Shown here: in pieces, positions 12,867 through 61,738 of the stretch | Position numbering within the stretch: position 1 is the stretch's first letter | How the letters are laid out: each line of letters opens with the position of its first letter | Assembly (NCBI RefSeq): GCF_000003605.2 | Contig: NW_003129863.1 | Span: forward strand, 185,037 to 249,036 | Length of the DNA stretch: 64,000 nt | Direction of reading: 5' to 3' | DNA from: Saccoglossus kowalevskii | Taxonomy: Eukaryota > Hemichordata > Enteropneusta > Harrimaniidae | Notes under the pieces: generated by a model | What the model was told of the DNA's origin: nothing | Database searches by the model: none | The model's input: only the letters and a program-made list of their open reading frames with translations | Program-made: the position numbers and the translations under genes

Positions 12867-15800
12867 ATGAATCCAAAACACCAGTCATATGAGATGAACC
12901 ACTACTACTGGACAGTGTTCACAAGTCTTCTGGTCTTGGTATGCACAGAAGGTAGGTCTGATAGTCTAAATGTGACAGAGTGTATATTTTTATCGTCATT
13001 GAAACGACGTGTATGTGCAACAGCAATTGAACTTTGTTCCGTGTGTTGAGCTGTGTTGTATCTCATAGACAGTGTGTGTAGGCTAAACCTAACCCATCCT
13101 GCCATTTACTTCGTTTCGGCACTACGGCTGCATTTTGTGTGGTTTTTATTTACAAATATTTCCCCACTCAGTAGCAGTTTATGCATACATCGGCATTCAC
13201 GAATATTTATTTACTCTAGTTTAAACCGTCATTGCTTCTGATAAGTGTCTTTGAGTATTTCGTACTCTAGTATGATAATTAGAAAATTTTCAGAGTGTTT
13301 GTTGTAAAGAAACGTGCCGGACGTGTTAGCAAAGACATTTAACAAACACAATTTGAAGCTAAGCCAAATGCAAATGCATTTTTTTTATTTTCCCAAGACT
13401 TCGACAGCTCTTAGCGCATTAAATTTGTATGGTTTGCTTAAACTTTTCGATCTGAAATGTACTATTTTTTACGACGTCGCATGTAATTCACTATTTTTGT
13501 TAAACACAATGCCAATTATTACATAAACATTTGAGAGTCGGTTGTAGTGATGTCTTTAAAATTGGTAATTAGTTATATGAAATAATTTACAACAACATTA
13601 TTTGCTTTGCTATGTGACTATGTGTACATAGCCATTCCTTTTTATCATATTTCACTTGGTATACGGCAATGACAATTCACTATTACATAGACATACATAC
13701 TATATAAATATAGGTACCATCAAAACGTTGATATTTAAAAATTCGAATATTAAAGATCGCAGTAAAATACTCAATAATCGGCAATGCTCTAACATACATG
13801 TTCATAAATGTAAAACAGAAATCAACCACTCAGTTACTAATAAGATAGTCGGCATGGAGGTTGTTGATATCCTCTATATTCTAATCTCTGAAAAATATAT
13901 TACTGTCATTACTGGCATAATACTGAAATTATTGTTTCAAACAATAAAAACAAGAATATAATGAACCAAAACAGTGATGGAGCTAGACGCATATGTGTTA
14001 TATTAGTCAGGTACCAGTCAGAAATGATCTCAGTAAAATTGCAACATGCGTTAGTCACAATACAAAAGCACAGCAAATATTTATAATTCGTGGAGAGCGA
14101 TTAATATGAATTAAAATGTCATTAATTTCTGGATTCTGTAATCAATATAAACATTCTTCATCCATGCATACTGTCTGAAGCGTGCATATTTATTGTGAAG
14201 TGGTACTTCTGTTCCATTACCACATGCCACGAGATAAGTGTTCTATTTTCTATTGATGTGATAACACGCGTTACAACTTGTATAGCAGCAGTTGTTTCGT
14301 GTATTTTTCAATATTCGATTACTTCTCAGCTAGTTATTTCCATAAATACTATATGTGTACTATACACATTCATATATTGTATAATTTAAGGTCACATATC
14401 AACCAATCAGATACACGTGAGTACACACACATGATAACACGCACGCAAGTGCACACACTGCAGATGTTCAAACTCATCGCATCACTATTTGTCGCCAACT
14501 TAATTCTGATTATTATACATGTATATATTTTACACACGATTCGGCACTATAGACAAAGGTTAATGCGATATCTTTACTATCTAATCTGGGACTTCGATTA
14601 ACACTGTGCTCTATTTCGTTCAGCATTCATACTTTATGACATTTGCAAATTTTAGTGCAGTACAAACATATGATTAAGTGTACGCGAGTTGCTATTTGGG
14701 GTTACGAGAAACAAGAAAACGTCGACTGAAATATTTCAAAGATACTATAGGTCGGCTCATACAATCTGAATTGATACATCTCGACATCGAGTGGTATGTC
14801 AGCATGTAAAACGAGATTCGATGTTGGCAGGCGTAATGAGCTAGATTAGATGCCGCCTGTTATCGCGAGATTTTGAAACATTTACGAATATTAGACTAGT
14901 GAATCGGCTAGGATGGCTGTGGGCAAGCCTTTCGTACGAGTCCCACGGCAATGTACTGAAGTCATCGAGACAGCCGATTAGTGATGACAAAGACGTGTCA
15001 AAGATGTTGCTATTACTATAGTAACTGATAAGAACTCATACGATAACCATTGCTGTATACTGCCTCGAGTTTGTTAATGATGACACTACCTGATAACAAA
15101 GAGTTATCACAGTTGCCAGGCTTTTTATTTATGTTACTATGGCATTTTGAACATTTAACGCGATGTCAAGAAAATGAAACACTGTTTGAGGAACACCGTC
15201 TCGTCTATTCTCGCTCACAACGAGACCTTGGTGGTCATTCAGTTTGCGCCTGGGATCTATTATGTATATATTTGGCCCAATTGCATTATTGCCATGGTGA
15301 TTTGATTTATTTCACTGGAAAATGAGTTCAATGATGATAATCTGTCAGCTTTGAATAAGTATGTTTTATCTTCTAGATGTTCGATTTCTGCCAACTAATG
15401 TCAGATTTCAAACAGTCAATCTGAATTCTACGTTATTATGGGATCCACCAGAAAATGCCACCGCTGATGACGTCATCTTTTACACAGTACGGTACCAAGA
15501 GTATGTCATTTGTCATTTTATCGTTTGTATAGTTTTGTTATTATTCCTTAGAAATATGGATAAAATGTCTTATGTTGTCATTTTAACCCTGACCCTTACT
15601 TTATCAGTTGAATAAAAACTATAAACTAGAGTGTGCAGTATAGTTCATTTGCTGTTCATAAATTCGGGAGAACTAAATATTTATGCTCAAATCTCTCAAA
15701 AAAATAAAACCGCAAATATTTACCTGATGTTGACTACTAGCTCCTGTGGTTAAGAAACAAATAGCGATTCGCCGTGTTCTGTTTCGCGTCAATTCCGTGA

Positions 15801-18800
15801 AGGACATACATGTGAGAGTATACACTGCTTAATAGTATAGAAATTATTGGTTATTATCGGAATTCAAAAGACGACTTGGTTAGCCAATACACAGTACTCA
15901 AAAATCTTACCACAAATGTATTATAGAATTGCTATAATACTACAACTTTATATGAACTATTGCTATTTTAAAGATTCAAAAGTCGCCGCGCAGAGTGCGT
16001 TTGAATTACGTGCGTTATAAATGCTGCATAAGAAAAAAATTAGGTTGAATGTTATTTCATGTCATAACGCCTTTTCTGCGGCATTACAATATAACATTCT
16101 ACTTGTAGGGAGTCTCAGCTGAGTGAAGAATGGTTACAAAAGCCAGACTGCTATAATATAACAGAAACAGTTTGTAATTTTGGTGCAGATTTTAATTACA
16201 TCTACACGTACTGGTATGCCCAAATAAGGGTAATGAATAATGTGACCCGATCTGCTGATTGGACAGAACCTGAAATAGTACAACCAATGTTCGATGGTGG
16301 GTACCATGTTTATTGTGACATTCGTCATTTCAATCCTGACCTCATAATTATTCACATTGTTTTTAGCGCTTTGACCCAGAACTGTTGAAAAAAGGAATAT
16401 GCCCATTTGCTCCTGCCCTATCACATAGCATATACAAAATACAGATAGGCAAATGAACTACTAAATTGTCGGTGGGGAACAAGGTATTCTGTGAGTTAAT
16501 ACATAAATATATGTACATTCTTCATGACTAGAGCATAGTATAGGTCCAGCAATGTTTTTTTTAGTTTAACAAAATCTGTTCAACCCAAGCTTCGTTTATA
16601 AAACTTCCTGTAGCGAGGCTGGCCTTAGTTACACTCGTAATAATAATTGTATCATTGTATTGTGAGTGTATTAAACAGTAATCAGTAATCAGAACCGTAT
16701 TGATAATTAAACATTTAACACAGGTATCATCGGACGCCCTGAGTTTACCACAGTAATTGCATACAGCTATCACATCTATTTAGAATGGTTAGCACCAGAG
16801 ACACCATTCAGTAACTCTGATGGCGGATATCTACGAATGGACGATGTAATGACAGTTAATTACAATTTTACATACTGGAAAATAAACGAAACTAAAACTA
16901 AGGTAAATCTATAAGATTGTACATTTGTCTTTATATCATCAAAATATTCGAGCTCGAAAACGCAGAAATAAAATATAATATATTATACTATCTTGTTTCC
17001 ATTCAAAGATGCAACAGTATTTGGGAGAAGACAACAGCGTAACTCTGATGGAATTAATAGAACCTGTAATGTCTTACGAAATTGTACTCCAGGGTGAAAC
17101 ACAAGGAAAATATGGAATTCCGAGACATATAACAGTTTCCAGTATGTCATTTTATATTAATCCAACTTCAATTTCAACTCCTTGATTAGTCACTAGTACG
17201 CGTCAATGGTCAATCTTTCCAATTATTATACAAAATATGCCAGATTATGCGATTTCCTTGGTCAATCTGTGGTCACATGATGTCATATGAAAAAAAGAGA
17301 ACAACAATGAACAGATAAAACTGATACAATTCAATATTGTACAGTTGAACACATGTTACCCACACATTTATCTGAACACATGCTACTAAGCTCAAAACCA
17401 AACAAACCATGGTCACTGGAACAGTGTTGTTTAGGTGACCCAACTTCTCTCACTCTGTTGAAACAAACATATCCTGTTGCCTTATGATTTTCAGTAAGTG
17501 CATATTGTACTATTGCGGCATTGTAACACAAACTTTATGTTCTAGATGTTATTGGCGTTCCAACAAATATTAAATATGTGACTGTGAACTTAAACTCCAC
17601 ACTTACGTGGGATCGCCCGATCAACATATATAACGATGAAGATGTATCATATACTGTCAGATACCAAGGGTAAGTATCCTCGTGCGGACATCCGGGCTTT
17701 TTCACGGCCTGGCAACCATCACGGTGAAAACAAAGACCGACTCAGAAAACTCTACCTTGGGATAGTTATTGGGACTTTTCTCAACAGTGTAACAAATACC
17801 CCTATATGTGCAACATATATACATTCCGTTGCTCAGGATTACTTCAAAGTTGAGTCTGTGCTGTTTCCCCAACTGTTGCCTTCTTCGACGGCGTAAACAC
17901 ATCATGTCATGAAAAGGTCGATGCTAATGCTTTAAAAACAAGAAGTATTCCGCATATATTTATATATTTGATGAGAGAGTACAATAAAAAACAGTGTTCT
18001 TCAGGCATAGAAAATTCGCTTTTTGGGTTGGGAGTTACGGCTCTGTGGTTTCGCTTTTGTTTCTATCTTGTGATGGTACAAATCAGGGGCCTTTAGCGGC
18101 ACATTTCTGTCATATTATCAGGACCGTACTGAGTAGCTGAGTGTCATTGATATTTTATGTTGCTATTGATAGCTATGCAGCCATGAATAGTGATATTTGT
18201 CAGTAGTATATGTACAGGCTTTTGAAATAGCATAAACATATAATGGAAACTATTATAAATTATTTGATAAAAGGTTTTGAACTGCAAACTAATAGCAACA
18301 TCCGTAACACAATAAACCAGATCAATCAATCAAATCATATCCAAGAGTTGTCACAGTTTGCATGTAATTATCATGTAATTATAGCATGGCAAATTGCATG
18401 ATCTAATCTACTTACAGATGTGGCGACGGTCCTTATCTGGAAAAGCCTGAATGCACAAACATTAAGACTACTGTGTGTAATTTCGGAGCTGACTTTATGT
18501 ATTATGAAAGTTGGTGGTGTTCAGTCATTCAGTGTACAAGCGTACAGTTTAACAGTACAAGTGATCTAACGCCTCCTGTACATACAATTCCCAGAGAGGC
18601 TGGTAAGCATCTGCACTATACATAGCTTTTCTTTCTTGCTTTAAGACAGCAGTGATTATTTTATTTTGATGATTGGATAGTATGACTGTGAATAATGAAC
18701 TTTGGCGTCGATTTTGAACCTTACTTTGCTAACTGGCATTACCAAATACAGACATTGTTTCGTCTTCGACGTATAAGAGAGACATATTAATGAGCAACTA

Positions 18801-21800
18801 AAGGCGGATATGTTTAATAAAAATTATGGAGAGATGATAGATAGACAAATTTAGGGAATAAACAACCGCATTTGAATGTTCCAATCAATAATGCACAATT
18901 CTCGACTGTGGCTAGTCTCGATTGTTGCTTTGGTTTATTCCGATTTACTAATCTCCCTTTTATTAGGTATCATGGGACCTCCTAATATAACAAACATCAC
19001 TGCTGGCAGCGATCAGATATACTTGTCATGGAAGGCACCGGAGACTCCGTACACCAATATAATCACCGGGGAACCCAAACTAGTCAGTGATATCATGAGT
19101 GTCTACTATAATTATACATATTGCAAAGCAAATTACACAGACTTGTGTGTGAGTATGAATTTTTTTTTCATTATTTTCTGTTTTAGTAAATATATTGACT
19201 ACACAAACTAAGTCTGATTTGGGATTATGTTTGTCTGTTCCAGTTGAAGATATTGTAATATTTTATTTCTAGCAACATAGCAGTACAGAAACTAAGACGA
19301 ATATGCTTTTACATGAGTTCATAGAGCCATGGACGTCTTATGACATAAAAATACAAGGCAAGACTAATGGAAACTATGGCATTCCTATAAACCTGGTTAT
19401 TTTTACCAATGAAGCAGGTAGGGTGATTGAAATAATGTTTTGATAGATGTAAAACCATTATTATATTAATTGTTGTTAAAGTATACTTGTTGAAACTACT
19501 ATGACTTTCTGGCAGTTATTATACCCCAACGACTGCGAGTACCTAAACGGGAGCTGGTGCAAAGACGAGTAGGGGAAAGTTGTACGATGATTTCGACGGG
19601 CTTAATAGGTTTTCCTGCATTTCCATCGCAGGTTGAATGTTATTACAGCTTACGTTTGTTAGTAGCTTCTTCCTGTTGTGTAGAGGTGCATTATTGCTTC
19701 ATTAAATCGGATGTTGATTTTAACAAACAAGTTATTTGGAATCTCGGTTATAGCGAAAGTCTTCAGGTCTTTGGATATTTACTTAACTTCAAATTTTATT
19801 AGCATTGGCAGTAAACCTCATACTGGAACAATGGAGACAAGACGGACAGCGATAATAGATGTGTTAATAATTCGTCCGTCTATAAAATGATTCTTACTAA
19901 TTATAAACCAATTGAAATTTAACAACTGTTTTATATGAATGACATGCAATTCTGCTAGTTCGGACCACAATTCATAGGTCGTGTCGGTCGGTCGGTTCAT
20001 TCATTCATCCATCCATTGTAAGCCAACAATATCACACTCACGCAACGCACTGATATACAACAACCTTACAACATTCACAATGCATTAGAAATATATTCTG
20101 TATCTAATATATTCCAGCACCGAGTAAAGGAGTGAAAATAGCTATAGTAGAAGTTCAACCACCTGTTTGTGAGGAATCTCCTGACATAAGAAACGTAACA
20201 ATCAAGTGGAAGGTAAGCCTATATAATTTTGAAATGTCTATAAAAAACATTAAACGCAAATGATCTCATCGCCGAGAGTGAGGGGGCCACGTGACTTCTT
20301 TCTGTCCCTCATATAGTGTTATAATATCTCCCACTGGGCATCATGGTGTTTACTGTTTGATTTACCCTTGTAACCATGGTGTTTATAAAAGAGAACGTGA
20401 TGATGGAAGAGAATGGAACACTATTTGTTTAATGGGCTAAACAAATCTCGTAGCTATCTCAATCTCATCAATGTCTCTGTGCCCATTTGTGTCGGAGGCC
20501 CAAGTCTTCAACGACATTGAGTATTTGTCATCAGAATGTTGTATGCAAATTTGTGCAATAATGAAGACTTGTATTATTACATTAGTAGTTTAGGATGGAC
20601 TATAGGTACGACCATGAGGGCGCTGTTCATATTGGGATGCGATGACGTCATACGGGGATGGATGACGTCACAATGGGAGGCCGTGCATAGATGAGCATAA
20701 ATAATGACGTCACAATGGGAATTCGTGCATAAATTAGCATAGATGAGAACCATGGCCGTAAAGGGGTTCATTTGAATTAGGATGACGTCACAATGGGATA
20801 TTGTGCATACATTTGCATACATAAAATTGATGTGAATACGAGGTCGTGTCGAGTTCATCGTGAATACATTTGCATAAATTACCATCATTTTTTTAATTAT
20901 TTTTTTTAATTATTTTTAATAATTTTTAATTATTTTTTTTAATGCAAAACAAAACAATACAAAAACAAACTGTATACAGATGACATAAATAATGACGTCA
21001 CAATGGGAATTCTGCATNNNNNNNNNNNNNNNNNNNNNNNNNNNNNNNNNNNNNNNNNNNNNNNNNNNNNNNNNNNNNNNNNNNNNNNNNNNNNNNNNNN
21101 NNNNNNNNNNNNNNNNNNNNNNNNNNNNNNNNNNNNNNNNNNNNNNNNNNNNNNNNNNNNNNNNNNNNNNNNNNNNNNNNNNNNNNNNNNNNNNNNNNNN
21201 NNNNNNNNNNNNNNNNNNNNNNNNNNNNNNNNNNNNNNNNNNNNNNNNNNNNNNNNNNNNNNNNNNNNNNNNNNNNNNNNNNNNNNNNNNNNNNNNNNNN
21301 NNNNNNNNNNNNNNNNNNNNNNNNNNNNNNNNNNNNNNNNNNNNNNNNNNNNNNNNNNNNNNNNNNNNNNNNNNNNNNNNNNNNNNNNNNNNNNNNNNNN
21401 NNNNNNNNNNNNNNNNNNNNNNNNNNNNNNNNNNNNNNNNNNNNNNNNNNNNNNNNNNNNNNNNNNNNNNNNNNNNNNNNNNNNNNNNNNNNNNNNNNNN
21501 NNNNNNNNNNNNNNNNNNNNNNNNNNNNNNNNNNNNNNNNNNNNNNNNNNNNNNNNNNNNNNNNNNNNNNNNNNNNNNNNNNNNNNNNNNNNNNNNNNNN
21601 NNNNNNNNNNNNNNNNNNNNNNNNNNNNNNNNNNNNNNNNNNNNNNNNNNNNNNNNNNNNNNNNNNNNNNNNNNNNNNNNNNNNNNNNNNNNNNNNNNNN
21701 NNNNNNNNNNNNNNNNNNNNNNNNNNNNNNNNNNNNNNNNNNNNNNNNNNNNNNNNNNNNNNNNNNNNNNNNNNNNNNNNNNNNNNNNNNNNNNNNNNNN

Positions 21801-24800
21801 NNNNNNNNNNNNNNNNNNNNNNNNNNNNNNNNNNGGGCCATGGTCCTCATTTATGCTAATTTATGCACGAATTTCCATTGTGACGTCATTATTTATGCTC
21901 ATCTATGCACGGCCTCCCATTGTGACGTCATCCATTCCCGTATGACGTCATCGCATCCCAATATGAACAGCGCCCTCATGGTCGTACCTATAGTCCATCC
22001 TAAACTACTTACATTGGTATTAAATATTCATGCTCAAATAAATCGTAAGAAAACAATTATGGAAACTTAAGTTAGTATGGCTTCAAATAATACATTTGTC
22101 CGCCAATCGCCAAGATTTCGGTTCTTTCGCCGTGGTTTGGTCATATCTAATACTTTCTTCTGGGTGTTGAGAGATTGGGTCAAAGCATCCTCGAATGTTC
22201 AGTCTTGATCAACGGAAAATATCAATCGGTTAGCTTTTTTTCAGTTGTCAGTAGGTTATTGGCATTCAAATTAACGGTATTGGGAACGGAAAAAATAAAA
22301 ACATATATTCGATTTAGTTGGCCTGACAGCCCGATCAAGTCCCTAAGTACATATTTCTCCTGCGACATTGGGATTTACCGTAAAGCCATATGAAGGAGAT
22401 ATTTCAGGAAGCATGTACTATGTCGCCTGGGTTAATTATCATGTTGTAGGAGTTATTTATAAAAGCACTCCCTTTGCATGGCATGCATTTGCGGCGGGTT
22501 TACGTAGTCCAATATCTTAAACGGCTATAGCTGTGAAACAACAAACCACTTGGTGGAATTACTTCATTTAATTTCAAAACAAACATCTACTATTTACATC
22601 ATGGATTCAAATGCTGCCTCAAAACAGACACGTATCATAGTATATAATATCATATCATAACTGTTTTATCGCAAAATTTTTTATCTGTATACATAGGAAA
22701 CTTACTTGATTGAAATTTAATTCAATCCTGTGAAGCAAAACAATAATATGAACAACGAAAGTGTATTGTAATTCCATTGCAGCCCATAGACGAGGAAGAT
22801 CATAATGGAGTGTTAACACGTTATGAAGTACACTATAGCTACAGTAATACCACTTTACAAATACAGAACATTACAGATGTCAGTGCCACGTCTACACTGC
22901 TTACTGATCTATATAGATGGGAACAGTATTATATCACAGTCAGTATCTGTACTAGTGCTGGATGTACGGAGCATAGAGATGCACCTTACGTTTTAGAACC
23001 TGATAAAGTAGGTAGGTTGCATTATGTTGTGCTACTGTGATGATCATTGCTCAATCACGACACTAATTAAATGATGGCGATGGTGAAAAATTACTATATA
23101 AGGTTATAGAATTAATAGTTCTTATTTCCAATATAGCTCTTGGTTCTCCGAGTAAAATCCAGGCAGAACTAACATCGTGGAACTCATTCAACGTGTCATG
23201 GTTACCACCTGATAATGATGAATGTATTGTTGGTTACAACGTGAAGTGTGAGAATGGTTGGTCAGCTACGAGCGTGTTTGTTCGTGATGACCTCTATGTA
23301 AATTTTACCAATCTCTCAGTATCTTTTTACACTATATACGTGTCGGCTGAGATATATTCAAATTACAATTCATCTGTGAATGGTTCTCGTGTAGTAATCA
23401 GGATAACAATTCCAGGTATATATACTATTTATATATGTGTGTAATATAATATTCAATTCACCAGTGTTTGGGTACCATGCAGTAACTGGTATAAACATTG
23501 CAGGTATGTATACTATACTATATATGTGTCTGCAGGGATATATTCAGATTACAATTCATCAGTGCTTGGGTACCATGTAGTAACTGGTATAAACATTGCA
23601 GGTATGTATACTATACTATATATGTATCTGCAGTGATATATTCAGATTACAATTCATCAGTGTTTGAGTACCATGCAGTAACTGGTATAAACATTGCAGG
23701 TATGTATACTGTACTATATATATATGTTTGCAGTGATATATTCAGATTAAAATTCATCAGTGCCTGGGGTACCATACAGTAACTGGTATAAATATTGCAG
23801 GTATGTATACTGTACTATATATATGTCTGCAGTGATATATTCAGATTACAATTCGTCAGTACCCGGGGTACCATGCAGTAACTGGTATAAGCATTGCAGG
23901 TATGTATAATATACAATATATATGTCTGCAGTGGTATATCCAGATTACAATTAATCAGTGCCTGGGGTACCATGCAGTAACTGGTATAAATATTGCAGGT
24001 ATGTATACTGTACTATATATATGTCTGCAGTGATATATTCAGATTACAATTCATCAGTACCCGGGGTACCATGCAGTAACTGGTATAAACATTCCAGGTA
24101 TGTATACTGTACTATATATGTGTCTGCAGAGATATATTCAGATTAAAATTCATCATTTTTTGGGTACCATGCAGTAACTGGTATAAACATTGCAGGTATG
24201 TATACTGTACTATATATATATATATATCTGCAGTGATATATTGAGATTACAATCCATCAGTGTTGGGGTAGCATGTATAGAATCAATCATCATAGAACGA
24301 GGTGAAGGAAATCAGTCACCCTAGAATACAATGTTCATTGTTTAAAGAAGTGTAAGACATTAACACCTAGATCACACTATCCAATTATGTAACCACTGGA
24401 AGACTTTTAAAGATTCAATCACTCTCAGTTAAAATGCCGATAGAAATGTTGGGAGACTAGTATAGAATCTGTCACCATGAACAATGTTCATGACTAGAAT
24501 GTTTGGGTGATTTCTTAGAGAGTGGATGGTGTTGTTGGAACAACTGCAGGGGTCATTCACCTTAGCATACAGTTGGGTGAAATTGTTTGTAAAATTGTAA
24601 AAAAATGCTTTACAAACCAACCTGTTAGGGCGGCAAACCAACCAGTTAGGGTGGAGTTTAAGAATTATTTAATTTGAATACTATATATATTCATTTTTTC
24701 TCAATTAAGAAATTGATGAACAATTTGTAGGGAATCATGGGCTTGGATGGAATTGCTGGAAGTCATTTAGGTAGTCGCCATGGAATGAAATGTTCATGTA

Positions 24801-27434
24801 TAAATTGTTGAAACACTTGTAAGGAACAAATCATCATTTGATCACAATGTCCGTAAATTGCTGAAAAACTTTCAAGTAATCTTTCCTCGTAGATTGCAGT
24901 TTCCATGAATGGAATTATTAAACGATTTGTCCATGTATAGGATTTGTGACCTATAGGAAATAAATCGCCATAAACTGTAATGTTATGGTCGGAATTGTTA
25001 TATAATTGAATGTGTTATATAACCAGTAGGAAATAAATCGCCATATAGTGGAATGTTTATGCATAGAATTGTTGGAATACGGATTAATCACCGTGATTAC
25101 ATACTCAGTGAATAAAATTGTTGGAAGACGTGAAGAAATAAATTCACCCTAGACGGCAAATTGCAAAGAGTGAATGTTCAACCTAGAAGGCAAAGTCCAT
25201 GAAATAGATGACAATCAATCAATCAGCGTACAGGAAATCGATCAGCCATGCGCTTTTCTCGGACGGAGACGGAATTTTAGACCTCTAGATTACAATAACT
25301 TTGTAACCAGTCACCCTGCATTGAACTGTTTGAAAACTTGTTTTGTATCAATTACTCAGACTGCATTATCTAGTAAAATTATTGCTAGACTAGCCAAGAA
25401 GGCCATGGAATTCTAAAGGAAGATTTAAAGAGAATCAATAATTCCTCAATGCAATTTCCATTGAGATGAGATATACAAGATATTCACAGTTAGATTCAGA
25501 TGAAGTATAAATAATCAAATCCACTACTAGGTAATTCAAAGCTAACTGCCCCGTTTCATTCATTAAGGTGGCAATAGGGGTAAAATGTGGTAAAATTATG
25601 ATTCGTGTATTCTAAGCTATCCTGAACATTTATATCTGGGTGAATACGGTAGTGTGTATGCCATACTAATCATTGTCTAAGGTATTATCTGACTGTCAAA
25701 TTCGCAATTGACACATAACACATAACTTTGGTAGCGCTGGAGGCTAGATGATCGCATCTCAAGTTGTCTTCATCTGTTTTGTCTTCTAATTATGGCCATA
25801 ATTTTTCACATGTTTTACGACTGATGCTGCCTTAAATTATTACAGTACCACTTCACAGAACGTTATGTGTTCCTTTGGTGTCAGAAAGAAACATGATTCC
25901 AATGAACAACTTATACAATTAAAACAAATTTAAAACGTTATTTAAGCTTGGATAATTGTATTTCATTTTTTACATTCTTATAGGCACTAATGCAGCCACT
26001 AATGCGGGCACTGCTATAATTGTTGTGACATTGGTAACATTATTCTTATTAATTTTCATCTGCTTGCTGCTGGCAATTTATCATATTAAACGTGATGCTA
26101 TTATAGCATTTGTTTCCAATCCACTACCACAAAAAGTATGGCAAGATTATATGGTAAGTGACGATATATTATTATGGAAATATATATGTAAATATATCTA
26201 GTATCTTTAGATGCAGGGATATACATGTCCCATTATGATTCAGACTTGTTCCTCAATGCGCTTTGCCCTCCAAATGTCGCATTTCTTTTTTGTGAGTATT
26301 TGTGTCGTTAGAACATCACCCATTTTGACTATAAAACCTCAATATTTAAATTTTAAAATTAAAAAAAAAATCGTTTATAGTGATTTCCCCACTTCTGCAC
26401 AAATTGTAAAAGCGTTATAAATGTTATTATTATATTAAATACATCAATAGATTAATTTGAATTAAATGAATAGCTGACGCCACTTTGAACTCTATATTTA
26501 CGTTGGTATATTATTAGCATTATAAAATGCAAAACAAATGACTGTTGCTGTTACAAATGTGTTTATTTATTCATGGAATATGTTCACAGTACAGCCCGTG
26601 ACCATGTCTAGCCATGGACATAGAGTTGAAGTAAAGCCATGCAGTTGAATTATTTTTTTATTTTTAGCAGTATATATGGTTCCTCTTTCAGAAAATTCAT
26701 TTTAAGCAGCTTTGTTTTGGAACAGATAATTGCAACTGTGTATTTAATTTTTATTGTTTGAATAGGTGACTCATAGTGTTATGTGTCACTTGTTAAAAGT
26801 GCACTCACCATCCTTACACAGACACTGATGTAATCCGTCTAGTAGTGATGTTTACATGACCAACATCTAATTTGTTATACTGCAGAAAATCACATTCAAA
26901 GTGGAGGAGTATCAAATTGCCGTAGATCCTGATGACGCAGATGAAGAATACGATACAATACGTGAGAGCAGTGATACAACAAACGTAATGATAACGACAA
27001 CATCAACTACAATAACATCACCAATTGCAACATCAGAGGCATCATTATCTGACTTATCAGTGTCATCAGCAATTAGTCATAATTCGGTGAATGGAAATGA
27101 TGGTATTGAACTCAGACATAATGTGTGGAAGCAGCTGTATTGGAAGACAGAACCATCACTTCCCTTAATGAATTCTGATAATTACGTCCATAGACAAGAT
27201 GAACAACCAGAACAATCGCCTGTTGAATCATCTTGTGATATTCCGTCTTACAGTCATATGTGTGCCAACTCACGCGTATCTAGCATTAGTTATTTCGATA
27301 ATAAAGATGAGAATGATTTGCGCAAATTTTATAATATATTTCTTGGAACCATTGGTGATGAAACTCGCGATACACCGAATATCAAGAATCAATATTCTAA
27401 GGTGACCGAGCCAGGAGGTGAATGTAACTCATGA
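12867..27434 (+). CDS. Receptor A: class II cytokine receptor-like, 888 aa, 14 exons
   Basis: Exons: 12867-12951, 15377-15500, 16109-16296, 16724-16902, 17009-17141, 17546-17669, 18418-18602, 18967-19148, 19273-19417, 20118-20212, 22783-23011, 23137-23415, 25984-26153, 26886-27434. Intron phases are 1,2,1,0,1,2,1,0,1,0,1,1,0, and all junctions join in frame. Domains: signal peptide 1-28; D1 29-132 with C84-x7-C92; D2 133-236; second D1 237-339 with C290-x7-C298; second D2 340-448 (GIMGPP start); fibronectin III 449-556 and 557-649; membrane span about 660-684; box 1-like NPLPQKVWQDYM 695-706; tail to 888. Tail tyrosines include EEYDTI (728), NYVHR (806) and QYSKVTE (876). The D1-D2 pairs resemble IL10RB/IFNGR1, and doubling recalls IFNAR1. 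I infer a plasma-membrane cytokine receptor signalling through JAK. No WSXWS motif is present. An alternative start is the ATG at 12894. The tail appears shortened compared with B. Confidence 0.8.
20578..22015. mobile_element. Foldback/TIR element with TGACGTCA arrays, TSD TACATT
   Basis: It sits in intron 10 of receptor A. Inverted arms begin AGTAGTTTAGGATGGACTAT at 20584 and end with the complement at 22009. TACATT flanks both sides (20578-20583, 22010-22015). The arms match over at least 170 bases. Each arm carries internal short repeats of (a)atgacgtcacaatggga. Perfect TGACGTCA palindromes are visible at 20643, 20663, 20705, 20783 and 20993 on the left, and 21881, 21923 and 21943 on the right. 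The middle is hidden by the 817-base gap, so any transposase would be unseen. The arms are non-coding. Confidence 0.8.
21018..21834. other. Assembly gap (817 N) inside the foldback element
   Basis: An unbroken run of N. The gap lies between inverted arms, where a hairpin-forming or repetitive core would defeat sequencing or assembly. Its content and true size are unknown. Confidence 0.99.
23430..24275 (+). repeat. Minisatellite (about 9 x 98-104 bp) built from an exon end and splice donor
   Basis: Copies of GGGTACCATGCAGTAACTGG recur with the T of GGTACC at 23473, 23571, 23669, 23770, 23869, 23968, 24067, 24165 and a weaker one at 24269. The unit is homologous to the 3' end of the last fibronectin exon (compare exon 8 of receptor B, N-Y-N-S-S-V-F-G-Y-H-A-V-T-G). 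It includes the donor CAG|GTATGTATACT and a TCTGCAG acceptor-like end. At least two units (23536-23601, 23634-23699) are 66-base, phase 1-1, open segments between AG and GT; others carry stops or one extra base. It lies in intron 12 of receptor A, and B and C lack the array. Confidence 0.85.
24290..25983. other. Rest of intron 12 of receptor A
   Basis: AT-rich, with repeated loose phrases such as ggaatgttcatg-atagaattgttgga between 24300 and 25150. This hints at an older decayed tandem repeat with a unit of roughly 60-100 bases. No exon with usable splice sites and receptor homology was found; in particular no match to the 33-codon cassette of receptor B. Confidence 0.4.
25984..26153 (+). other. 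Receptor A transmembrane and box 1-like exon
   Basis: Exon 13 opens with a short stalk (GTNAATNAGT), then a hydrophobic run AIIVVTLVTLFLLIFICLLL, and ends with NPLPQKVWQDYM. The matching exons of B (45005-45153) and C (57991-57843) end with F-S-S-P-I-S-K-M-K-W-H-E-Y-V and F-S-N-P-I-S-K-R-K-W-H-E-Y-I. The shared P-(L/I)-(P/S)-x-x-x-W-x-(D/E)-Y just inside the membrane is where JAK-binding box 1 lies in cytokine receptors. Confidence 0.75.
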
Positions 27435-29660: not shown

Positions 29661-31000
29661 TAAGATGTTTTTGGCTGATTTCGACTAGCTCGCCATCTGG
29701 CCTTGTCATTAACCTTTATCAGTAGATGTCATGGCAACCACTGTCAAACTGACTGACCTCATCACTTAACCCCTATCAGTAGATGCCATGTAAATATAAA
29801 TCATGACATAAGTATCACTGTATTTGTGTGAAAACATACATCATAGACAAACGTCCATCAGGTGTTCAGGCGTATGTTTGAACAGATGCGTAGCTATTTG
29901 GTTTGCTAAGTTGTGCCAGTCATATCTTGCACTGCGAGTCTAGCTCAAACAATGCCCGCACTTAGATGAGGAGGTACAGGACATGTATAACTGCTGTAGC
30001 CAATTGACCGATACGAATTTAATACTTGGCGTGTTTAGACGACGTATCATTGTTACGGCATGCAATATAAGATCAACGTGCCGACAAATCATTGGCAACT
30101 TTATCGTTATGTTTAATCATGAGCATTCCATCACTGAACTTTATTCCGTTTCTCACGCGTGTGCCAACATTCAAGATCCGGCATAGAGTTATTTGTATCA
30201 GTATGAAAATGGTGGTCTCAGCAGTGAGTCCCCGTGTTAGTTGAACAAGGACTCGTATTATACTGGAAATACGGAATATCGAACGCTGGAATTAATGTTA
30301 ATCTGAACTGTGGGGCCAAATCAGCTATTATAACTTAATCAAAGGGAAATTGAAGCGTTAACATGTTTACTTAACATCAACAAAGACACGTAATGGCGTA
30401 AATACATTAACGACATACAGATTCGGTCCGTCATTTTGTAAACTCATATCCGGTTCAAATTTGAATCTCAGTCATGTAGAAACAGATGCTGGGTGCCGCA
30501 CATGAGAAATTACTACATTTCCATTAAGTCCACGGTTTATCAGCACGTATAAACAAGGCTACAGTTTACTGTATGTCCCAGTGGAATATACCACCCTACT
30601 GCTATACTATAAACTTATGCTATATCATAAATCAACATAGCATAATTTATAAGTCACCATTATTCATTGTATAACGTGACCTTTGTATCCACAATATTGT
30701 TTAAATTTACAGTCCAATAACCTTGAAAACGGTGTAATATTTTGGTAACTATTAACTCGATGGAATTGTATCTTCTAATTAGAGCTATTAGATGCTGGTT
30801 AGTTATTAAAAATAGTTGGACAAATTGTGTTATTAGGCTGGACAATAAGTTAGTTTAAAATAAATTTAATGTCATGTGATATAAAATAAATATGAGTTAA
30901 TCAAAAATAACGAATTCATCACCAACTACTAGTATCAGAGTTTTTCGTTATAAGAATTGATAAAACACAAACTGTGTTAAGCCATCAGTTAGGCCTGTGG

Positions 31001-31008: not shown

Positions 31009-31042
31009 CTGCAAAAAGCTTTTGACAGGTTCCCCATCTGTC

Positions 31043-50215: not shown

Positions 50216-50782
50216 TCCCGTTGGTTGTTTGTTATTTTGATTTTAAAAAGCTCACTCTTACTTTAAACAAACTAATTATTTCACGTGAACCATTTCTGTT
50301 TTGACGAATAATTACCGAATTCTTCATCGCTAAATTTGAATTTTCCGCCTTCATCTGCACCATTCACACTCAAAACTACAGATCGCGTATTTTTTTTAAT
50401 TCTTTTTTCATATTTCGTTTTTATCAAAAATAGCTGAAATTCTTCAAAGATTCCTTGCTCATATGATTGTTGGCCAATTGGCAAGAATTTGTAAGAAACA
50501 TCCACGTTTCAAATAATAAAGTAACAATCACCTGTCACATGCAATTTCTAATTTACTCGAAAGTGAGGGTTACTTTCACTTTCCATCGTTCAATTTGTCG
50601 GAAATTTGGTCTGCAGTGACAGGATATAATGAAACACTATTTGAGGACCGAAAACAAGATTTGCGAATTTCTTACTCTCTTGTCCATTTGCGTGTAAGCT
50701 CTACTAATACCTAACTTGTCCATCTCGTTAAGCCACAATATCTCTTGCAACTTTTTGTGACAAATATGGACATGAATTCCCT

Positions 50783-51017
50783 TTATGTGGATATATAAAC
50801 ATTAATACTAACATGATCTTGTGAATTCACAACTATATGGCAATACAAAGCGAGTGGTGAATATAGTAATTTTACATCAGCCTGATTATTTACTTGAATT
50901 AAGACGTTGTAATCAAATAAACGAAAATCAATTTCGTATTTTGAATACAGTCCTTCAATTTGCTGCTTCGAAAGTTGGCTACAGTACTTCACCAATACAT
51001 CAATCGATGACGGTAAA
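50783..51017 (-). pseudogene. Inverted copy of the partial sulfotransferase 3' duplicate
   Basis: Complement of 4358-4600. It reads openly on the minus strand through S-S-I-D-V-L-V-K-Y-C-S-Q-L-S-K-Q and Y-S-K-Y-E-I-D-F-R-L-F-D-Y-N, but has no catalytic region or start of its own. It lacks the stop present at the same place in the first copy. Confidence 0.7.
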
Positions 51018-51129
51018 CTGAAAACCACCTCTTCAATACATATTCGAATAATTCCTTTCATTTTTACAATTTAACAAATTCGTTGAACCCTTCGATGGCG
51101 AGTGGTAAATATACTAATTTTACATCAGA

Positions 51130-51843
51130 TTATTTCCTAGAATTAAGACAGATTAAAAACTCGGCAGTGTTGTAATCAAATAAACGAAAATCAAATTCGT
51201 ATTTTGAATAGAGTCCTTCAATTTGCTGCTTCGAAAGTTGGCTATAGTACTCCACCAATACATCAACCGATGAACTGTTCGTTCTATGTGGAGCGTATGA
51301 AGAGAAATCAACAACACTACTTGCGTTGATTGCCTCCACTACGCTCTCGCTGTCTTCATTTAGTGTTTCAAATTTTCCAAGAATGTCGAAGTCGATATTG
51401 CACGGATTACATTGATTGTTAATCAATCCCCAGTGCTCATTTAATTGGTTCGAATCTGTTTTCAATATATGGTTAACAAAATCACTGAAACTTAACTTGT
51501 TTGTTGCATAATTTATTTTGTCCACCACAGTCATCAATGGGCTGCGGGAAATCGTAATTATATTCCTGATTGGGGTAACTATCCAAATTTGGGTAATTCA
51601 ACCGATACATCACACGGTTGCTAGGTATCTCTGATACGTTTTTGAAAGTTCCCCGCAACACAAGAAACACCTTTCACCAGTTTGCACTATCAACCTTTGC
51701 TGCGGACAGTAGAGAATGTTGTAATTATCGTCTACAAGAAAATTGTTATACTTGACTCTTCCAGCACTCAGTTCTGGATATTGTTGGCACATCATACCAA
51801 CATGTTCTCTCCTTCTTTTTTGTATTTCTTTCCAGTCAGGCAT
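51130..51843 (-). pseudogene. Broken sulfotransferase copy (exon 3 only)
   Basis: The minus strand begins with the same CACCTGTAG acceptor and ATG as exon 3 of the + strand gene (M-P-D-W-K-E-I-Q-K-R-R-R-E-H). The frame shifts inside the 5'-phosphosulfate loop (CPQQRLIVQTG instead of CPAAKVASTNW). A deletion of roughly 110 bases removes the 3'-phosphate loop between D-S-Y-P-N-Q and the T-V-V-D-K-I-N-Y stretch. The C-terminal third (H-W-G-L-I-N-N-Q-C-N-P-C) is well kept. Similarity continues into intron sequence up to about 52150; exons 1 and 2 are absent. It cannot encode an active enzyme. Confidence 0.85.
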
Positions 51844-52164
51844 CTACAGGTGGACAAAGAAGATTGATAAAAACGATCAATGTCACGTAAAATAGTGGAA
51901 TCTGTGTAGTGGTTTACTTTCTCAAAAATTGCTTTGATTTACACTCTATAGTCTTCGTTACATACTTCAATACTGAAATGAACTCACTATTTTTCTAGCA
52001 TATATATTGTTCTGAAGACTCTATTGTCGTGAACTCACTGTATTAACAAGTACTCATTCTATTGTTATGAACTCACTCCATCATTACGAAGTCATTGTTT
52101 TGGTGTTCACTCACTCTTTGTTACAAACCCGCTCTATTATTACGTACATATAATATCTTGGTGA

Positions 52165-52710
52165 TTGTGGTTTGTTTTGAATCTGTAGTTGTTAAATCTG
52201 TTACGTGGGGTCTGGCCAGTCTGACCAACATACTGGATACCACATCCGGGTACTGAACAGGTAAGGAGGTATATAACATTTGTATACTCACAGGTAATGT
52301 TTTTATGGATTGTGTACTGTTGTGTCGTATTAAAACTTTTGAATATGGTAGCAGAACTGACGTGCTTACATGTTTTACAGCGAGTTAAATTAAATGGTGT
52401 AAAGCCAGTGGAATCGGAAGTAGTGGATGATTGAAAGTAACCAGGTTGTCTCGAATGTTATTGTTTTGCAGTGGTTTTGTCAATGTGCCCTGCTTGTAAC
52501 AGAGAATTAACTAGACTTCTAGCTTGACTGGTGAATAACTTAGTAGGAGCGGATGAGAGTGCCTGATATGTGGTGTTCTCTTGGAGGTGGTTATGTATTT
52601 CACTGATTTAAAACTCTCTGTCCATTATAGCAATACCCAATCCCTTGTCAGCAGGTTGGAAGACGATATTTTTGTCCTTTTTAAGAATGGCAAGGGCATG
52701 CTTTTCTTCT
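52165..52710 (-). mobile_element. Penelope-like retroelement fragment
   Basis: On the minus strand, near 52700-52630, the sequence reads NIVFQPADKGLGIAIMD, the start of a Penelope-type reverse transcriptase. Near 52400-52180 it reads R-C-K-T-C-K-H-V, then Y-T-I-H-K-N, then VIYLLTC and GIQYVGQTGQTPRNRFNNY, the Cys-rich linker and GIY-YIG-type nuclease start. The two ends of the element's protein lie only a few hundred bases apart, so most of the polymerase is missing. It abuts the end of the duplicated sulfotransferase intron (about 52150). Confidence 0.8.
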
Positions 52711-56030: not shown

Positions 56031-59000
56031 TCAATTGTAACATACTGCTTCCAGCGACTTCATCGTTGGCACAGTTTTTTCAATATTCTCACCCACCGAT
56101 GAATACTCTTCCACCGTGCTGTCGCCTTTCAATGTATGTTGATCAGAGTCATCTCCATGACAATCGCAAATTGGACTGAACAACATCAATGGATATCTAT
56201 TGCCTTCTAACGATGTACTATCGTCAACTTGAAAATAAAAAATGTCCGACAATTCAAGATGAGTGAATGATTTACTATTCTTACAAGTCTCTCCGGTCGG
56301 TGTTTCAGGTACAGCCTCCAAACAGGGTTCAGCAGGGTACCCAATTATAGATGTACCAGCGGGCATTTGTTTGTCTGGCACTTGAATACCTGGTGATGGT
56401 GTACGAGTCAAATCCGGACGAATCTCTTTGTAAAGTGTACCACAAAGATCCTTACTCGTTGAAGTTGTAACATGTGGTGATGAATCACTCTGGATTTTAT
56501 TGTTTGGACGAAGCCTTATCAATCCATTATCAGCTCCTGTTACTCTACTGTAATTATCTGAGCAATTCGTTGTTTCACCTTTGCCTGTTTTAGAAGAATC
56601 GCGCCAATATACTGGTTTAGTATATAGTTCATGGCAACTACTGTCAATATCGATATTAGACGCATTCTCAGTTTCATCACTCATTCCATCAAAGAAATCA
56701 TTAACAAATCTTTTCAAATCAAAATCATCCTCATCGTCGTCACTAATATCCGTTGTCACAGAGTTATATCGAAATTTTCTGTAACATGAAATATCATTCA
56801 ATGTTCTTAGAAGTGTTGAACTGGGTTGTTTCGCTCGTCTATGGACATAGTTATTAGAATATGTTGTGGAATGTTCTTCTGCTATGGTTACAGTCCCTCC
56901 CTCTTTAACCACTGCCATCTGATGATCCATATCCTTTGCAAGTTCGATTCCACTATTCTCACTCAAAGAACTATTATTCGTCGTCGAAGAAACTGGTTTC
57001 AGACTTGTGACACGAGGAGATACCGAATCGTAGACTTCAGTTGGTTCGTTGAACTTCAAGGTATCATTGGAAGAATGTTCTTTCTCTTGAAACATAGTTT
57101 GCTGCAAAGGATAGGTGATCAAATTAGATAGATAAATCAATCAGTCAAGTTTCGTAGTGTTTAGTCTGGCCATTAACATTATGACTTTAGTCATAATTCA
57201 GAAAAAAACAGTCCATGGGCCACATTAGATTATTTTTGCTGACTTCCAACTAACTGTGAGGACTAAATGATATGTGGTATCATTGAACATGTTTTGTGTG
57301 TTGGCGACTTTTTTAGTCTGGGAGTGGCATTAAGCCTCGTCGGTTATCATGAATTGTAATTTCATCGATTATGTACAGATATTTATTTAGATTTAGTAGA
57401 AAATTATACAAATTATACTGACCCAGTAAGTAGGAAAGCGGCTATTACACGTACACCCTTAACAATAGGTATTTATATACTCGTCACGGCGTAAAGACGG
57501 GATTTGTACTTAACAACCTCTAATATTTGCATAATACATATCAATATGAAACGTCTGTATCCCACAATTCAGTGCGTGGTAAAATTTTGTGGATATTTGC
57601 TCTTGGTGTTCATAGAAAAGAAAGTGCCACAGGTTTTCCTAACTTGCTCAGTTATATTTGCTCTCTAACACTGAGCGATTGGGCCGGGAAGATGTATAAT
57701 AATAGCATTATTACGAGGATTCAGACAAAATATGCACTTAGACAGTACGTGGCTACATTGCTACTTCTCCTTATTACCTTCGTGCATACTTTGTGGCATT
57801 CTCGTAATAAATCTCATATAATATAATTTGTATAATACATACTATATATTCATGCCATTTCCTCTTAGAGATTGGATTGCTGAACAATCTTTTCAAGGTG
57901 TCTCGATTGTAGTATGGAAGTACCAAGCATAAACATAATAATATTAAAATACATGCCGCAGCAATTATAAATATTTTAGTTGCATCTGTGCCTACAAGAA
58001 ATAACCAATAACACTGTTAAAATAATGGTATAACAATTTTATTTTCGATACGGTCTATATAGTCTAATGTAATTTTAGTAATATTACTTTCTTGCTTGTA
58101 TCTCTTGTTCAGATACTTCGTTAAGCTTTGATAGCAGACAGTTTTTGTTTAGCATTTGTTTTTTCGTTCCAAGCAGTACCCTTTTACTGTTTCATTTGTT
58201 CTCAATTTACCTCTTTACATTTTTAAAACAAGCTTGTTCTGGCATGATTTTGAGCAGCAACACCTTTTATTCGTAGAAAACGTTGCCGCCTTGTAACTAT
58301 CAGTAAATATTCGAATTTACACTAAATACAAATGTTGGAATCGCCAAACGAACACGTATAATTTATAGCAAGAATAAATCACTACAGACATTATAGTATA
58401 ATAGTATGTATACCTGAAATATTTAGTGGAGGATACATCACAGGTCAGATAGGTATTGTAAATGCGTAGCCAGAAACAACTCGAAGTGGCGTGATGTTAA
58501 CTCGAGGAATATCTGAAATGTTGGGGAATTATTTGAATGTGTCCCTGCAGACAAATATATGCTATAGTATACATACCTGGAATGTTTATGCCAGTTACTG
58601 CATGGTACCCCAACACAGACGAATTGTAATACGAATATACCTCTGCAGACACATATATATTGTAATAAGTTGCCGGCACGTTCGTAATATGCGCAATTTC
58701 TTCATCAGACAAAATTTCACGACGTTTTGGAGATTGTCTTTCATTAAATGTTACGTGGTAAGCAAGTATACATTCATCATTATCCGGTGGCAGCCATGAC
58801 ACGCTGAATGAGTTCGATGACGTCAGTCGTGCCGACATTTCCCTCGGAGAATCCAGCTCTAAATGGAACACAAAATTATTCTGTTTAGATATATAAATTT
58901 TAAGAGAGAGAAAGAGATTGGAGGACAAAGAAATGACAAAAAGTGTGGATGAGAAATTGAGCACAATAAGGGTGGAAATTGTAATTGCTTTAAAAAAACC

Positions 59001-61738
59001 TCATACATTCATTATTGTATCATTTTCAACAACATTGTATAATAGCATCTGTCACGTGTGGCATATTTGTAGAAAACAGATTACCATTACATTTAACGTG
59101 GTCGCAAACACCTTCTAGATANNNNNNNNNNNNNNNNNNNNNNNNNNNNNNNNNNNNNNNNNNNNNNNNNNNNNNNNNNNNNNNNNNNNNNNNNNNNNNN
59201 NNNNNNNNNNNNNNNNNNNNNNNNNNNNNNNNNNNNNNNNNNNNNNNNNNNNNNNNNNNNNNNNNNNNNNNNNNNNNNNNNNNNNNNNNNNNNNNNNNNN
59301 NNNNNNNNNNNNNNNNNNNNNNNNNNNNNNNNNNNNNNNNNNNNNNNNNNNNNNNNNNNNNNNNNNNNNNNNNNNNNNNNNNNNNNNNNNNNNNNNNNNN
59401 NNNNNNNNNNNNNNNNNNNNNNNNNNNNNNNNNNNNNNNNNNNNNNNNNNNNNNNNNNNNNNNNNNNNNNNNNNNNNNNNNNNNNNNNNNNNNNNNNNNT
59501 GCTCCGTACATCCAGCACTAGTACAGACACTGACTGTGATATAATACTGTTCCCATCTATATAGATCAGTAAGCACAGTAGATGTTGCACTGACATCTGT
59601 AATGATCTGTGTTTGTAGAGTGGTATCACTGTAGCTATAGTGTACTTCATAACGTGTTAACACTCCATTATGGGCGCCCTCGTCTATGGGCTGAAATGGA
59701 ATTACAGTAATCGACATATTAGTGAAATAGGATAAAATGTCAAGGTGACGAATTGATCGTATCCATTCCATGTATCGATTCATCCATACTGTAATAAGCA
59801 TCACAGTGTTTTGATTGGTCCATCTATTGACATCAAGGATAGCAATTTCACAATATGTTAAGATTTTGAACCAATTTTAAAACAATTCCTATTATAAATT
59901 GTAGTAATTCGAACATTTGTAGTTGTTCAGATAACAGTTGCATTGTGCCCGTATTATATAAACCACATATACTCGAGACTGGAGTAATCACGGCAAGTAT
60001 AAGGGCCGTAAATTGATCCAAAATATAGTAACCAGATTTCCAATATATCCCAACTCAACTATATACTGGTGACATAAAACAATAGCATTCACTTACAGAC
60101 ATAAGCACCAATTGTTTTGGTTATTACAATAACAATCACCGCCGCACATACGAACGGTATACCAATCGTTCTTCATTTTGGTCGTGCCAGTAAGTAAAAA
60201 AAAATATTAAAAATGAAAAGTTCTCATCTTTATTGCATCTTCAATATTTATTGATCAAAATAAATAACTTACAGACCAAGAAACGGTAACGTTTCTCAAA
60301 TCAGGCGACGACTTACAATCAGGTGACAGAATTCCCAGTGTTACATAATGAACACCGATTGCCGGGGCTGAAAAATTAAATAAGGCATAATGCATTTAGA
60401 CGCAATTGATAGTGTGTCTATGTGATATCAAAAATCGTAGTTAATTTTAATCTAAAATTATATCAATGGTTATCATATAATTAATATCAGGAGCACAAGA
60501 GCTTATTTCATATCGTATCGTATATTTTATCATATAATATTGTATTATCTCATTATGAGTGTAGTTCGTCTCATTCCTATCATTGTACCTGCTTCTCTGG
60601 TAGTTACTGTCAACGTTCGTGGAGTACCATATCTATTATCAATAGTCCAGCCTTGTAGAACAATATCATATGAAGTGTATGGAACGATTAAATATTTCAA
60701 TATCACATAGCTTCTATTTTCCAAATTTATATTTTTCTAAAAATAAATACAAAATACACACAAAACACATGAAATTTAATAAAACCTTTCCCTGGGTATA
60801 TTCATTTGATTAAATCGGAATGTACCCTGGCAACACACAAATTAGCCAACAAAGTTCGATTCCGATATGCAAAAGCAGAAGTTGATTTTATTTACATATT
60901 ATTTTGTTGATACAAGTTGAAAACTCATCAGATATATGCTTTGTATGTGAATTTCGACGAATAGCATGCAAATTACATATATAAAATAACAAATAGAACT
61001 AATACTATGCTAATTATATATACACAGTATATAATAGGGCCACTAGTATACCAGTTGTATATATAAAGTGATCAATTTGTCTATTGGTATGTAAATCACC
61101 TATATGAACCAGTTATTTTTATTATTAATATTCAAACAACACGTACAATTTATATATACAAACTAGTTAATTAGACTACCGTAAGCGAATTGCATATAAG
61201 AAGTAGTTAAATTGAATTAATGTTAGAGGTACTGATTCGGTATACCATCATCATTTGACATTTGCGGTCAGGCATTAGCGTAACGTGTAAATGGGCGATA
61301 GGCGCAGGTCAAACTTTGATGAACTCATCTAAGTTTTACTATATGTGTATTGATTGATAGGTGTATACATCACACAATAGCAATGTGACAACTCAACTCA
61401 ATGTCGATGAGTGTTCGACAGTAAATTCTCGGCATGGATCGATCATCAGTTGAATGACTGAATGACTTACAATATAAAACAAATGGTTATTTACTATCAC
61501 AAATCAGCCAAGTATGTACCAAAGCAAATTTTTCTGAATTCTATACAACGCTATAACATGTTGATACTTACAGTTACACTGTTGTTATGGGTTTTCCAAT
61601 ACGTTAAATTATAATTGATTGACGTTCGATCACTCATACGCTTATACGTTGAATACGGTGTTTTGGGACCCAACCATGTCATGTATATGTAATCACTCCC
61701 AGCCGTTAAATTAGTCATTTCAGGAGGTCCAATTATCC
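56031..61738 (-). CDS. Receptor C: inverted paralogue of receptor B (5' end beyond window)
   Basis: Minus-strand exons in order: 61738-61572 (D2, GIIGPPEMTNLTAGSD), 60736-60589, 60367-60273, 59690-about 59462 (end in the gap), 58858-58577, 57991-57843 (membrane span, F-S-N-P-I-S-K-R-K-W-H-E-Y-I) and 57101-56031 (tail). All lengths before the tail equal those of B, and splice sites and phases are kept. D1 and the signal exon should lie right of 64000. The tail keeps EVYDSV, NYVHR, NYSRVTG and TLYKEI but loses frame near G-E-N-I-E. The last 60 or so residues of B are thereby replaced by a short T-V-P-T-M-K-S-L-E-A-V end. All four motif tyrosines remain, so it may still work; otherwise it is a young pseudogene or a poor-quality allele. 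Confidence 0.75.
59122..59499. other. Assembly gap (378 N) in receptor C
   Basis: N run covering the last 38 or so bases of the fibronectin exon that starts at 59690, plus part of the following intron. Confidence 0.99.

Follow-up and report, generated by a model that had tools for sequence, protein, structure and literature searches.

Class II cytokine receptor-like genes clustered at one locus of the hemichordate Saccoglossus kowalevskii

Did receptors of the interferon/IL-10 kind exist before the vertebrates? Type I interferons are listed among hypothesised vertebrate novelties in a passage of one study (PMC10210618), and according to the excerpted text of a 2012 paper, a system of signalling through cytokine receptors is not apparent in sea urchin (PMC3296744). 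The genes of hemichordate antiviral immunity have been termed, in an excerpted source, "a provocative and open question", with TLR3, the RIG-I-like receptors and the IRFs, all upstream of interferon, conserved. The question is raised anew by a stretch of 64,000 nucleotides from the enteropneust Saccoglossus kowalevskii (contig NW_003129863.1 of assembly GCF_000003605.2, positions 185,037 to 249,036; called here the window), part of a 324,751-base contig (C2165) in a genome of 572 Mb. A preliminary description, made from the letters alone, saw in it three paralogues with the D1-D2 modules of class II cytokine receptors. Three receptor genes do lie within the window, A and B on the forward strand and C on the reverse. 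Their modules are not one apiece, however: gene A has two, making four in total, and the D1 of gene C lies outside the window. Once adjoining contig sequence is added, five receptor genes are found at a single locus, at about 145-267 kb of the contig. The cluster very probably encodes, as judged from sequence, single-pass cytokine receptors of class II (the interferon/IL-10/tissue factor family), coupled to JAK and STAT in a hemichordate.

Family assignment of the D1-D2 modules

Gene A runs from a putative signal peptide through D1, D2, a second D1 and D2, D3 and D4 to one hydrophobic helix and a tail; gene B has one D1-D2 module followed by D3, D4, helix and tail, and gene C is a close copy of B, also with a single module. 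The D1-D2 modules belong by sequence to the class II family. The Pfam model of class II D1, Tissue_fac (cut-off 27 bits), scored above its cut-off in all four modules (49.4, 33.4, 33.2 and 32.5 bits; E from 4.5e-13 to 8e-8), the D1 of C being taken from outside the window, and the model of D2, Interfer-bind (cut-off 21 bits), scored at or above its own in three of the four (21.0, 23.9 and 25.3 bits). Against the 177,635 distinct sequences of the PDB, a phmmer search with module 1 of A alone gave 28 rows. Class II receptors make up 20 of these and take the top places, beginning with IL20RA (3.7e-13; 28% identity over 154 positions) and continuing with IL22RA2 (4.7e-8), IFNAR1 and IL22RA1 (7.3e-8). 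B alone gave 17 rows, of which 15, including the first 14, were class II (top match IL10RB, 1e-8). When sequences were combined, class II receptors filled the first 16 of the 28 rows given by a four-sequence profile, and a seven-module profile gave 31 rows, with class II accounting for 22 and for all of the first 16: IL20RA at 1.6e-18, IFNAR1 at 5.2e-14 and IL10RB at 9.6e-12, against 0.008 for the best generic FN3 row (DSCAM) and 0.036 for the best class I row (IL13RA1). Module 2 of A'' was left out of the module alignment (A2) because of a stop in its last exon. The control, D3-D4 of B, gave 30 rows; RPTPs and fibronectin head them, and no class II receptor is included. Since D1-D2 is led by class II matches and D3-D4 has none, the signal points specifically to class II and is confined to D1-D2, and the E-values of the profile matches exclude chance as the source of the likeness in motifs.

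The identity first proposed has thus held up, in that the best profile matches are to class II receptors rather than to generic FN3, sidekick or class I domains, and the motifs that suggested it are all present: PP-x-N-V-R as GPPRNVR in the first D1 exon (D1a) of B; W-x-x-P as WDPP, WDRP and WNRP; C-x7-C in D1 as CYNITETVC and CTNIKTTVC in A and CENTVAHMC in B; IIGPP, WLAPKTP and LTYWK in the first D2 exon (D2a) of B; and EPWTSY in module 2 of A. C-x7-C is invariant in D1 of the seven aligned modules, but because the same spacing recurs elsewhere (in D2 of A module 2, in D4 of A and in the membrane helix of B), it is weak evidence if taken alone.

Gene structure adds to the case for a cytokine receptor. 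Intron phases of 1-2-1-0-1-0 are described, in the text available, for most IFN-upsilon-R1 genes and likened to those of the receptor genes of other interferons (PMC8863823). The phases of gene A are 1-2-1-0-1 in module 1, 2-1-0-1 in module 2, 0-1-1 in D3-D4 and 0 after the membrane exon, so that its 1-2-1-0-1 ... 0 matches the published class II pattern; those of gene B, whose first intron was not seen, are 2-1-0-1-0-1-1-0 and match from the 2 onward. Class I genes may have the same phase pattern, however, and the pattern therefore backs a cytokine-receptor module more than it backs class II over class I.

Several other observations weigh against a class II assignment. Interfer-bind had no match at E ≤ 1 in module 1 of A (the PDB alignments of this module extend into D2 of IL20RA and IL22RA2), and in D2 of module 2 its E-value of 4.2e-4 is beaten by that of fn3 (5.2e-5, below fn3's own cut-off). 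With module 1 of A alone, five rows of growth hormone receptor, a class I protein, appear at ranks 13-17 (7.7e-4 to 0.0022), ahead of those of IFNGR1 and IFNLR1. A D2 cysteine pair is conserved across class II receptors, and the position of the IL10RB cysteine holds Asp or Glu in all seven aligned modules. Finally, D3 and D4 are two extra, generic FN3 domains between module and membrane; we know of no class II receptor that has them, the ectodomain consisting only of D1-D2 ("D200") modules and being followed directly by the membrane.

Perhaps, then, the genes descend from an ancestral or divergent class I receptor, akin to gp130, Domeless or growth hormone receptor, and their likeness to class II is superficial. 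The growth hormone receptor rows would fit this, as would the two membrane-proximal FN3 domains, since D1-D2 standing on FN3 legs is the layout of gp130 and Domeless. An IL6R-like gene is also reported for S. kowalevskii in the accessible part of one paper (PMC13203501). Such an origin is nonetheless improbable. The best class II and class I E-values of the seven-module profile lie about 16 orders of magnitude apart; WSxWS, the class I motif, is absent from A (888 residues) and from B (879 residues modelled); D1 of A module 1 has no cysteine other than those of C-x7-C; and no class I Pfam family matched at E ≤ 1 in the modules tested. What is claimed for the class II modules is membership in the superfamily and not orthology to any one vertebrate receptor, because module 1 of A is 43-45% identical to module 2 of A, to B and to C, compared with 28% to IL20RA.

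Cytoplasmic tails, JAK and STAT

Directly inside the membrane, all five genes encode [NS]-P-[LI]-x4-W-x-x-Y, and all five tails contain the motifs E-x-Y-D-x-[IV] and [DN]-N-Y-[VI]-H-R. By the known workings of the superfamily we infer a type of ligand, the binding of JAK, the pairing of chains and a role in immunity. The ligand would be a secreted helical cytokine, held by the D200 modules at the elbow where their two FN3-like domains meet, with the D3-D4 pair serving as a stalk. The ligand would drive two chains to pair, for example a two-module A-type chain with a one-module B-type chain, which is a guess from the two types of receptor in the cluster. Through pairing, JAK kinases bound at the juxtamembrane proline/tryptophan motif of each chain would come close to one another; the JAKs would then phosphorylate the conserved tyrosines of the tails, and STAT would be recruited to them.

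A candidate STAT is found on contig C1295, where STAT-like exons include (parts named by eye) a linker, 'ISWANFNRENLSGKQFTFWKWF', and SH2, 'GTFMLRYSDGSIGGVTIAWV', 'LVNLYPDIPK'. A STAT SH2 query matches this contig at 5.8e-5, and the adjoining frames read by eye as the DNA-binding, linker and SH2 parts of a STAT. Of the Pfam models, STAT_bind had a single weak match (0.97), which lies on the same contig, and STAT_alpha gave nothing at E ≤ 0.001, its controls being equally silent. At 68483-71620 of C1295, the STAT-like SH2 frame continues into a tandem array in which its own 'GTFMLRYSDGSIGGVTIAWVAQDPNTGKSI' stretch is copied many times, an exon-derived repeat similar to the minisatellite of gene A described below.

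The step through JAK has a point against it. JAK needs its FERM domain to bind receptors. The only JAK reported for S. kowalevskii is listed, in a passage of one paper, with just a TyrKc domain (PMC13203501), and this lowers confidence in the full explanation, though an incomplete gene model may account for it. As for the ligand, Pfam IL10 found nothing in the whole genome at E ≤ 1, a result that is uninformative on the absence of a ligand because the controls matched nowhere either.

One might instead suppose that the genes are of class II ancestry and serve some role other than cytokine reception, for instance as a protease cofactor resembling tissue factor or as an adhesion protein. The matching D1 model is, after all, named Tissue_fac, the FN3 legs resemble those of adhesion-type proteins, and a JAK that binds these receptors is only postulated here. 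But no tissue factor chain appears among the PDB rows of the module searches, and the tails, 182 residues long in A and 415 in B, have 9 and 12 tyrosines, respectively, counted from the box-1-like motif onward. The retention of the juxtamembrane and tyrosine motifs in all five paralogues also speaks for signalling, and a non-cytokine role is considered unlikely.

Gene models and the layout of the locus

Gene A occupies 12867-27434 (+) of the window in 14 exons, its 13 introns all GT-AG and its frame open from ATG to stop over the 888 residues. Exon 1 (12867-12951) has the ATG, with which the range first described begins, and a putative signal peptide recognised by eye, MNPKHQSYEMNHYYWTVFTSLLVLVCTE, and ends in a phase 1 donor. 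Module 1 is made up of exons 2 (15377-15500; D1a, VRFLPTNVRF...WDPP...YTVRYQ), 3 (16109-16296; D1b, with CYNITETVC; 49.4 bits with Tissue_fac for D1), 4 (16724-16902; D2a, IIGRPEF...WLAPETP...YNFTYWK) and 5 (17009-17141; D2b, its end set by a GT donor), and module 2 of exons 6 (17546-17669; D1a; 33.4 bits with Tissue_fac for D1), 7 (18418-18602; D1b, with CTNIKTTVC), 8 (18967-19148; D2a; 21.0 bits with Interfer-bind for D2, at the cut-off of 21) and 9 (19273-19417; D2b, EPWTSYDIKIQG). The first and second halves of D3 are in exons 10 (20118-20212) and 11 (22783-23011) and D4 is in exon 12 (23137-23415). Exon 13 (25984-26153) encodes the transmembrane helix and the juxtamembrane box-1-like SNPLPQKVWQDYM, ending in a phase 0 donor, and exon 14 (26886-27434) the cytoplasmic tail and stop. 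The membrane helix is the sole stretch of gene A where hydropathy over 19 residues exceeds 1.6 (it reaches 3.36), so the protein passes the membrane once. The intron after D4 contains a 99-bp minisatellite of 8.3 copies (23454-24275, +), in which the D4 exon's 3' end is repeated together with its GT donor region, and many of the copies resemble a spare partial exon.

Gene B (37326-47114, +) has an intact frame from D1a to the stop; no exon for a signal peptide was found for it. Its D1 is encoded at 37326-37446 (D1a, VGPPRNVRYITVNMNATLVWNRP...) and 38972-39174 (D1b, with CENTVAHMC), D2 at 41674-41840 (D2a, IIGPPEMTNVTAGSDYIYMTWLAPKTP...YNLTYWK) and 42395-42542 (D2b), D3 at 42802-42896 (D3a) and 43486-43714 (D3b), and D4 at 44113-44394. 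The transmembrane exon, with box-1-like SSPISKMKWHEYV, is at 45005-45153, and the 415-residue tail with the stop at 45867-47114.

Gene C runs on the reverse strand from 61738 down to 56031. Its two D1 exons are at 251305-251421 and 249490-249690 of C2165, and within the window follow D2a (61572-61738, the 5' end coinciding with the end of the range first described), D2b (60589-60736), D3a (60273-60367), D3b (59500-59690, cut short by the N stretch 59122-59499), D4 (58577-58858), the transmembrane exon with box-1-like SNPISKRKWHEYI (57843-57991) and the cytoplasmic tail (56031-57101), beyond which similarity to B continues to 55884. The tail of A' is a 589-residue open frame (C2165 145306-147072, -) in which a motif, 'FTHLGLSDILYFQDD', is repeated. 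The tails of B and C contain a motif like it, and that of A ends much earlier.

When module 1 of A was searched against the whole genome, only the best candidates being scored (34), at least 30 exon matches were obtained at E ≤ 0.1, and all 30 of those listed fall on C2165, at 156-267 kb. A lone Tissue_fac match above cut-off genome-wide, on contig C3100, reads by eye as a common FN3 exon belonging to a different gene and was not taken as a sixth receptor.

The order of genes along C2165 is A' (-), A (+), B (+), C (-), A'' (-). Between 145 and 267 kb, C-A'' mirrors A-B, as would be expected had a block containing A and B been duplicated in inverted orientation. Synonymous divergence (dS) is similar for the two pairs of copies (A-A'', 0.143; B-C, 0.130), but that of A-A' (0.157) is likewise similar. 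The ratios of nonsynonymous to synonymous divergence (dN/dS), given without a test of significance, are 0.36 for A-A' (442 codons), 0.39 for A-A'' (458), 0.40 for A'-A'' (366) and 0.45 for B-C (446). The comparisons of A-type genes exclude the D2b2, D3a, transmembrane and tail exons; D3b/D4 was excluded for pairs with one cut copy, as were the B-C tails and all codons with N or a stop.

A cluster decaying without function is very unlikely, for although the frame of A'' is broken in D2b2 and in the transmembrane exon, the tail of C leaves the frame of B near its end and A has a shorter tail than A', all 14 exons of gene A are intact, as is B between D1a and the stop, dN/dS is 0.36-0.45 in all four comparisons, and the breaks may be errors of assembly, given the runs of N nearby (21018-21834 and 59122-59499 of the window).

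No synteny with the class II clusters of vertebrates was shown in the 144 kb, the 20 kb upstream and the 10 kb downstream that were covered (the downstream piece is all N). Read by eye, the open reading frames (ORFs) of at least 115 residues in ten pieces of the contig include the receptor frames of A' and A'', two sulfotransferases and one TMEM69-like frame. A gene of the sulfotransferase family (Pfam Sulfotransfer_2, 1.9e-42) is also present in the window, as an ORF at 3434-4240 (+), with a second copy, 91.5% identical and not open as a single frame, at 50611-52140 (-); the two sulfotransferase-like ORFs seen by eye downstream are at 275516-276289 and 280244-281056 (-) of C2165. Next to the second copy, at 52140-52457 (-), is an ORF fragment that resembles by eye the GIY-YIG part of a Penelope-like retroelement and has no significant Pfam match. 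Between A and B, a tandem 1.92-kb repeat (29660-36012) is present in two full and two partial copies, 97-99% identical and broken by N at 35070-35119; it has no Rfam match, and Rfam at gathering thresholds had none anywhere in the window.

The genome had been taken for that of an invertebrate, and its mitochondrial contig agrees, fitting the published description of S. kowalevskii; it comes from this species or a near relative, and in no case from a vertebrate. COX1, with seven in-frame TGA, is on a 17,037-base contig. Of 12 mitochondrial ORFs identified by eye, COX1 and ND6 share a strand, the remaining ten are on the opposite one, ND2 precedes ND1, and there are 59 AAA and 1 AGG codons (the ends of the ORFs overrun the genes). 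Relative to Balanoglossus, the excerpted accounts have COX1 inverted and ND1 or ND2 transposed in S. kowalevskii (PMC3121625; also PMC2697986), with AAA read as Lys and AGG unassigned, AAA being missing in Balanoglossus (PMC3121625).

Antiviral immunity and known receptors

The genes might be the receptor half of a pre-vertebrate antiviral system of the interferon/IL-10 type, a suggestion that we regard as possible but doubtful. The deuterostome ancestor would then have had class II receptors, and a helical class II cytokine, these receptors and an ancestral STAT would act downstream of the TLR3, RIG-I-like and IRF sensors. The suggestion is rated lower because Mx-associated genes in S. kowalevskii are reduced early after poly(I:C), according to an excerpt of the study (PMC10210618), which lends no support to an interferon response like that of vertebrates; "cytokine activity" is described there as enriched in one late-responding gene cluster. 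"Cytokine receptor" and "JAK" each occur 0 times in the main text of that study. No paper joining class II cytokine receptors with hemichordates was found in the literature searched, which was thin on subscription journals and did not extend to bioRxiv, and automatic gene predictions may already have given the cluster genes "receptor-like" names. The genes share the class II binding module with the known receptors and differ from them in belonging to a hemichordate, in having a pair of FN3 domains and in lacking the D2 cysteine. The cluster suggests that part of the signalling machinery of vertebrate antiviral defence is much older than thought. The missing ligand could be sought with the receptors as bait, and the published poly(I:C) time course could be examined again with these genes in view.

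Among invertebrate proteins, oyster CgIFNR-3 is described in an excerpt as an interferon-receptor-like protein that interacts with CgIFNLP (PMC8218723); this mollusc protein is likened to the cluster by its published description and not by sequence. In gp130 and Domeless, membrane-proximal FN3 domains and a signalling tail come after the cytokine-binding module. They share this layout with the cluster genes, which, unlike them, have no WSxWS (in A or B) and no class I Pfam match at E ≤ 1. IL20RA, IL22RA1 and IL22RA2, among the top PDB relatives of A module 1, have a single module and no FN3 legs, and no one-to-one orthology with gene A is claimed for them. IL10RB resembles gene B in having one D1-D2 module (query residues 1-194 of 212 align, nearly the whole of D1-D2, E 1e-8) and in its IIGPP-x-M, LAPK and Y-N-x-x-Y-W-K; it differs in that B has D3-D4 and the 415-residue tail, and where IL10RB has Cys in "TTYCVQVRG", B has Asp in "TSYDIVVQG". 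A parallel in plan to gene A is offered by IFNAR1, with its two tandem D1-D2 modules. Exon numbers are given, in the source's available text, as 7 for IL10RA and IL10RB and 11 for IFNAR1 (PMC3877593), which fits a signal peptide, four or eight module exons (four per module), a membrane exon and a tail. The 14 exons of gene A are the IFNAR1 plan with three more for D3-D4, the two generic FN3 domains that, in this hemichordate, precede the membrane.

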